A DNA stretch of 64,000 bases from a bacterium (GTDB lineage Bacteria > Zhuqueibacterota > QNDG01 > JAFGCO01), in the NCBI GenBank assembly GCA_016932575.1, contig JAFGCO010000055.1, positions 248,001 to 312,000 of the forward strand, given 5' to 3'. The position numbers and the translations under genes were made by a program. This document shows, in pieces, positions 12,843 to 13,634 of this stretch; position 1 is the first letter of the stretch, and each line of letters begins with the position of its first letter. Below the pieces are notes generated by a model. That model was not told the origin of the DNA, searched no databases, and saw nothing but the letters and a program-made list of their open reading frames with translations.

Positions 12843-13634
12843 CTATTCAATGAGTACTTTTTTATTTAATGAATCCAGCAGATTTTTGTTCTGATGTGCC
12901 GCACGCAGTTTATGATTCTTCAGCCGACCTGAGTCCTGCTTCACTTCATAGGCAGCGGCATTGATAAAAGATTTAAGTTTGGTTTGGTCTACCGAGCTGT
13001 GATAGTAATAGACCTTGTTTTTCAGGTTGATCCGACTCATTTCAACGGGCACCCCAAAGGCATTGAACTCCAGTCTGGGTGAAACCAGGCGCCGGGTCAC
13101 CAGATTCTTTTTGGTCATTTCATTCAGAATTTGATTTAACGTTGACATGGTCAGATTCAGCGAGCTGTCCAGACAGGAGTAGATGGTGGTATCCATGACA
13201 TCTTCTTTCAGCCACAGGGTTTTCAGAATTTCATATTCTTCATGAGTCGGCAGAATATAATCCCTGTTTTTCAGCACCTTCCTCTCCGCCACAGGTTCTT
13301 TTAATAGTTCGAAAGGAAGCTCGGGGAATATACGAATTTCTTCTGAGACCGAACCCATATTCCGGGTTGGTATTGGATCGTATCGGATATCACCTGATGG
13401 GGAAGCGTTGATATGCACACCCACACTTTTATTTCGCCTGGGCGCCGAACGATAGGCCTGCATGGTAATTTCAGGAAGTTTTCCGGCTGTATCCTGTTTT
13501 GTAATTGAAATGATGGAATCCTTTTTCTTCAGAAGAGATGTTTTACTGGTATCCGGGGTTTGTGACAGGGCGGGGATGATGACAAGGAGAGAAGCTGACA
13601 TCACTTCGCGATAACGGGTTTTATTTATCCGCAT
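12843..13634 (-). CDS. Predicted exported protein with BlaI/MecI-like winged-helix segment
   Basis: 263 residues of unknown function. The N-terminus (RINKTRYREVMSASLLVIIPALSQ) looks like a signal peptide or a short membrane anchor. Residues about 30-125 are polar and low in recognisable motifs. Residues about 129-195 resemble the winged helix of BlaI/MecI repressors: THEEYEILKTLWL opens helix 1, LTMSTLNQILNEMTKKNLV matches the recognition helix pattern, and TRRLVSPRLEFNAFG looks like the wing. The C-terminal 40 residues are basic. A DNA-binding fold behind an export signal is odd: either the signal is a tether and the domain faces the cytosol, or the fold is used for protein binding. It lies between a kinase and the DUF5916 gene. 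Confidence 0.7.
   Translation of the reverse strand: MRINKTRYREVMSASLLVIIPALSQTPDTSKTSLLKKKDSIISITKQDTAGKLPEITMQAYRSAPRRNKSVGVHINASPSGDIRYDPIPTRNMGSVSEEIRIFPELPFELLKEPVAERKVLKNRDYILPTHEEYEILKTLWLKEDVMDTTIYSCLDSSLNLTMSTLNQILNEMTKKNLVTRRLVSPRLEFNAFGVPVEMSRINLKNKVYYYHSSVDQTKLKSFINAAAYEVKQDSGRLKNHKLRAAHQNKNLLDSLNKKVLIE

Follow-up and report, generated by a model that had tools for sequence, protein, structure and literature searches.

The window, a stretch of 64,000 nucleotides, encodes a predicted exported protein in which a BlaI-derived winged helix has apparently been repurposed as a periplasmic binding domain that was ancestrally carried on a Ton/Tol-like force transducer, a reading that is given a probability of roughly 60% from sequences and structural models. 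The folded domain would descend from a winged helix of the BlaI/MecI type with the loss of DNA binding, and its long conserved wing would bind another component of the envelope, most likely a protein. The parts of the ORF are listed in Table 1. The earlier note placed the gene at 12843-13634; these coordinates stand, and the ORF runs along the minus strand (13634 to 12843).

Table 1. Parts of the window ORF (positions in the window, residues in the protein).
Feature	Position	Strand	Basis
Whole ORF, exported (predicted) BlaI-like winged-helix protein, 263 aa	12843..13634	minus	ORF call and homologues in 74/82 KSB1 genomes
Signal-peptide-like N-terminus, residues 1-24, putative cleavage between ALS and Q	13563..13634	minus	Sequence; AF2 helix 3-22; hydrophobic segment at the start of homologues whose N-terminus is complete
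Linker, low-confidence, probably disordered, residues 25-120	13275..13562	minus	pLDDT <50 over residues 29-97
BlaI/MecI-like winged-helix core, residues 127-183	13086..13256	minus	Pfam, AlphaFold2, PDB profile search, structural alignment
Former DNA recognition helix, residues 161-176 (LTMSTLNQILNEMTKK), without the AYTTxxTMMDRM pattern	13107..13154	minus	Comparison with cytosolic BlaI
Extended wing, residues 184-213, with the family's most conserved residues S185, P186, E198, N203, N206 and Y211	12996..13085	minus	Conservation
C-terminal helices, residues 217-263	12846..12986	minus	AlphaFold2 model

The family is nearly confined to one candidate phylum, KSB1, to which the window belongs. When the protein was first searched by itself, 54 of 59 relatives had a match, and a profile of 48 members gave strong matches, mostly single copy, in 74 of 82 KSB1 genomes, some of which are incomplete (75 at a looser threshold, the additional one having a weak match of a size seen with cytosolic BlaI). 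Outside KSB1 the same profile matched 2 of 306 genomes and left 304 without a match; both matches belong to one small other phylum, in which the gene is present in 5 of 6 genomes. Single-protein scans of genome contigs and viral contigs for close relatives found nothing, and the family is seen only by profile and whole-genome searches. Two records titled Actinomycetota (L100 = G062) and Bacteroidetes (L110 = G079) are KSB1 genomes, and their names are probably wrong. The near-universal, mostly single-copy presence of the gene in KSB1 suggests a core function in the envelope of this uncultured phylum.

The winged helix is recognizable in both sequence and structure. Pfam Penicillinase_R matches residues 130-182 of the window protein (E value of 3.5e-4, 21.3 bits versus a cut-off of 22.6), with a score of 23 bits when its neighbours in the frame are included, and the same model (PF03965) is matched by 32 of 48 homologues scanned singly at E values up to 1 (best, 4e-8). 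NCBIfam returned only CopY/BlaI matches, all below cut-off, and a profile search of PDB sequences retrieved CopR, BlaI and MecI. AlphaFold2 modelled residues 121-230 with pLDDT of about 90 or more and residues 29-97 as disordered. Foldseek alone found no match to the window model with an E value below 0.001; the structural aligner gave MecI (1sd7) as the top match (Z 10.8, rmsd 1.7 A over 87 residues), and the model of an anchored relative (L022) likewise aligns with MecI (Z 11.5, 1.8 A, 87 residues). No TonB_C match was found in the window protein or in the family members scanned, of which the C-terminal domain is the winged helix. The earlier note had proposed a BlaI/MecI-like winged helix at about residues 129-195 and structure prediction as a check: the proposed fold holds up and is modelled confidently.

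The surface by which BlaI proteins read DNA differs in the exported family. The recognition helix is of the AYTTTKTMMDRM type in the cytosolic BlaI-like proteins of KSB1 (n = 22), whereas the exported family has patterns such as ITAEDLNRLLEEM, from which AYTTxxTMMDRM is gone; its net charge is -0.39 in the exported family versus +2.09 in these 22 proteins, and its information content is 2.0 versus 3.3 bits per position. Conservation in the exported family peaks mainly in the extended wing, at the residues given in Table 1. The wing region comprises about 40 residues, compared with 18 in cytosolic BlaI, and is basic (mean net charge +3.6), with an NRRNRVYxY motif. Loss of the recognition-helix pattern together with conservation in the wing thus fits a fold that has been retained to bind something besides an operator, and a repurposed fold, one of the alternatives raised beforehand, is the best of them (DNA-contact pattern lost, charge -0.4 versus +2.1). 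The charge and motif of the wing could also point to continued binding of nucleic acid or some other polyanion in the periplasm (in DNA uptake, or LPS or another phosphate), as could the LptF/LptG genes that adjoin the homologue in 9 of 76 loci; however, the charge of the recognition helix ranges from neutral to acidic, its conservation is poor, and adjacency to LptF/G is confined to two families, which makes such binding rather unlikely.

Both the window protein and its homologues have N-termini that look like export signals. That of the window protein, MRINKTRYREVMSASLLVIIPALS followed by QTPD, reads as an n-region of net charge +3, a hydrophobic core, and A-L-S at positions -3 to -1 of the putative cleavage site, and the same look is common among homologues. 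The resemblance to a signal peptide that had been remarked upon in the window protein is therefore upheld by its own features and by those of its relatives, and a periplasmic location is predicted for the fold. Where the N-terminus of a member is complete, it starts with a hydrophobic segment, usually with positive charge before it, start codons having been picked with a preference for those that precede a hydrophobic segment. In about half of the family this segment looks like a cleavable signal peptide, in many cases one ending in FAQ, SAQ, AHAQ or similar; the rest resemble the anchors of TonB and TolA.

In TonB and TolA, a Ser-His pair contacts ExbB or TolQ and is required for function (PMC12215075), and the D-box strand is captured by ExbD (PMC10907165). 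Within the membrane helix of the present family, SxxxH, a short motif that 42 of 75 members lack, was found in 29 of 75 proteins versus 3.5 expected from shuffled residues, and L006 and L147 appear to gain it if the start is moved further upstream. In the other phylum, an anchor with SxxxH is present in 5 of 5 proteins. A D-box-like alternation of hydrophobic and polar residues directly follows the anchor in 20 of 34 anchored members versus 3.7 expected, but is at background in the signal-peptide members (2 of 41 versus 4.5 expected); PLEITYVSP of L166 fits the published D-box pattern (PMC10907165), including its flanking prolines. The two motifs therefore travel together.

These N-termini bear on whether the window protein might be a cytoplasmic regulator with its true start downstream of the hydrophobic segment, at Met57 or later. 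The in-frame ATG at residue 57 would retain part of the linker and the entire winged helix, and no clear ribosome-binding site was seen upstream of the first ATG in the window. A downstream start nevertheless seems most improbable: the members with a complete N-terminus have the hydrophobic segment, the 22 cytosolic BlaI relatives do not (maximum 17-residue hydropathy of 0.85), and the conserved SxxxH and D-box-like motifs upstream would be purposeless.

A family tree rooted on the other phylum, made by a quick search and often weakly supported in its deep and inner branches, makes the anchored form ancestral in KSB1 and has the form changing at least three times. The window protein falls within a supported clade of 12 signal-peptide members. 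SxxxH and the D-box are both absent from it, and no motor genes (TonB/ExbB/ExbD) are found near its gene. The window copy is probably a free, soluble periplasmic protein with no anchor, because its clade has cleavable-looking signal peptides and no motor motifs. Its gene has among its neighbours a CBM9/DUF5916 protein, a TonB-dependent receptor, and a sensor kinase/response regulator pair; comparison of neighbourhoods revealed no conserved link between the gene and these neighbours, and no partner conserved across the window clade.

Across the family, TonB/TolA-like, ExbB or ExbD genes are present in 26 of 76 loci (fetched stretches, median 14 kb), compared with a chance expectation of about 2.5% (about 7 TonB_C matches per 4 Mb genome). 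Such neighbourhoods are found in 19 of 30 anchored versus 7 of 39 signal-peptide loci (Fisher p 1.6e-4, with relatedness ignored). The Ton-type cluster is usually divergent from the homologue and upstream of it, with CutA and a gene of the metallo-beta-lactamase fold in between, and Pfam confirms TonB_C, MotA_ExbB, ExbD and CutA1 among the neighbouring genes. In L158, L070, L071, L069 and others, the order is CutA, metallo-beta-lactamase-fold gene, divergent TonB/TolA-like gene, ExbB and ExbD, divergent beside the homologue. Low TonB_C scores suggest that the transducer encoded in the CutA-ExbBD cluster is TolA-like.

The divergent layout, which is frequent for regulators, together with the fact that BlaI family members are repressors, would suit a membrane-tethered transcription regulator with a cytoplasmic winged helix, on the principle of CadC or ToxR in reversed order and perhaps freed by proteolysis. 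The positive charges before the hydrophobic segment, however, imply that the remainder should face out, the signal peptides of half of the family look cleavable, and the DNA-contact helix is degraded although it is kept by the cytosolic BlaI proteins of the same phylum. Such tethering, another alternative of the earlier note, is a poor fit and improbable: the anchored relatives have an anchor of the TonB/TolA type, and full export is to be expected of the signal-peptide relatives.

Equally doubtful is a structural or scaffolding role in the periplasm without any tie to a motor, in which the likeness to SxxxH and the D-box would be accidental or a relic. Neither motif is present in the window copy or in over half of the family as a whole, as this explanation would have it, but where the motifs occur they are together and far above shuffled expectation, and the half of the family in which they occur is also the half with the link to TonB/ExbBD genes.

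Other gene arrangements were observed in smaller sets of loci. In L083, L084, L086, L095, L059, L147 and L160, two LptF/LptG-type genes come next after the homologue, and after them SprA of the type IX secretion system (T9SS); a tie of the family to SprA or to LptF/G was rejected, these being confined to 7 of 76 and 9 of 76 loci, respectively. In one KSB1 family (L080, L149, L150, L155 and L081), the genes flanking the homologue encode an OsmC-like protein and a HAD-type hydrolase, joined in three of these loci by ABC-permease (MacB-like) genes; all are named by the appearance of their sequences.

For a BlaI-derived domain repurposed in the periplasm, the ancestral form would consist of an inner-membrane SxxxH helix, a D-box-like strand, a periplasmic linker, and a winged helix in place of the C-terminal domain of TonB or TolA. 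In anchored members, a motor of the ExbBD/TolQR type would grip the Ser-His helix and the D-box, the linker would cross the periplasm, and the winged helix would hold a component of the outer membrane or cell wall as its partner. In the case of the window copy, signal peptidase would release the protein as a soluble periplasmic binding protein, which would no longer be tied to the motor, or only indirectly. Operons that pair BlaI with TonB_C parts could, by conjecture, have been the birthplace of the fusion.

A broader proposal, which falls slightly short of an even chance, is that the family constitutes an undescribed class of envelope transducers driven by the proton-motive force, found almost throughout KSB1 and also in a second phylum. 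Their end domain would be a winged helix of the BlaI type instead of that of TonB or TolA, pulling on a component of the outer membrane or cell wall; some lineages, including that of the window, would have dispensed with the anchor, leaving the winged helix to act freely in the periplasm. If so, the fold of a gene repressor was exported and became the working end of an envelope machine, and another swapped end domain can be counted among Ton/Tol-type transducers after the vWA class of 2025. Annotation pipelines may label such exported proteins as transcriptional regulators.

Comparison with known systems sets the family apart from each of them. With BlaI/MecI/CopY (PF03965) it shares the winged-helix fold, with detectable sequence similarity and MecI/BlaI as the best structural match, but it is predicted to be exported, has a long N-terminal linker, lacks AYTTxxTMMDRM in its recognition helix, and has a wing of about 40 rather than 18 residues. 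With TonB and TolA its anchored half shares the SxxxH helix, the D-box-like strand, the periplasmic linker and a C-terminal globular domain, and often adjoins TonB/ExbB/ExbD genes; in contrast, the C-terminal domain of the family is a BlaI-like winged helix instead of TonB_C, and the window copy has neither SxxxH nor D-box. The fusions of BlaR1/M56 to TonB_C that are encoded beside BlaI likewise combine BlaI and TonB parts within a single operon, and occur in the same genomes (L199, L200), but there the M56 protein carries TonB_C, while BlaI stands apart as a cytosolic protein. In the genome of the window (L199:949-3251, contig C7 near 112466), a BlaI-like repressor gene shares 4 bases with an ORF that has M56/BlaR1-like, CarboxypepD_reg-like and TonB_C parts; another genome (L200) has the same BlaI-M56 arrangement, with an ORF of 1126 aa containing three TonB_C domains.

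No description of the family was found in the literature on periplasmic winged helices, on TonB with winged helices, on BlaI with signal peptides, or on KSB1 with TonB. The principle is shared with the vWA transducers (Williams-Jones et al. 2025, PMC12204202), which have an SHLS helix, a motor box, a disordered linker and a vWA end domain; further kinds of transducer were anticipated in that paper, which mentions neither winged helices nor KSB1. Both combine an anchor of the motor type and a linker with an end domain unrelated to those of TonB and TolA, which has the vWA fold there and is modelled as a winged helix in the present family. The anchored family would be another kind of Ton/Tol-type transducer alongside the vWA kind, a member of neither TonB/TolA nor BlaI.
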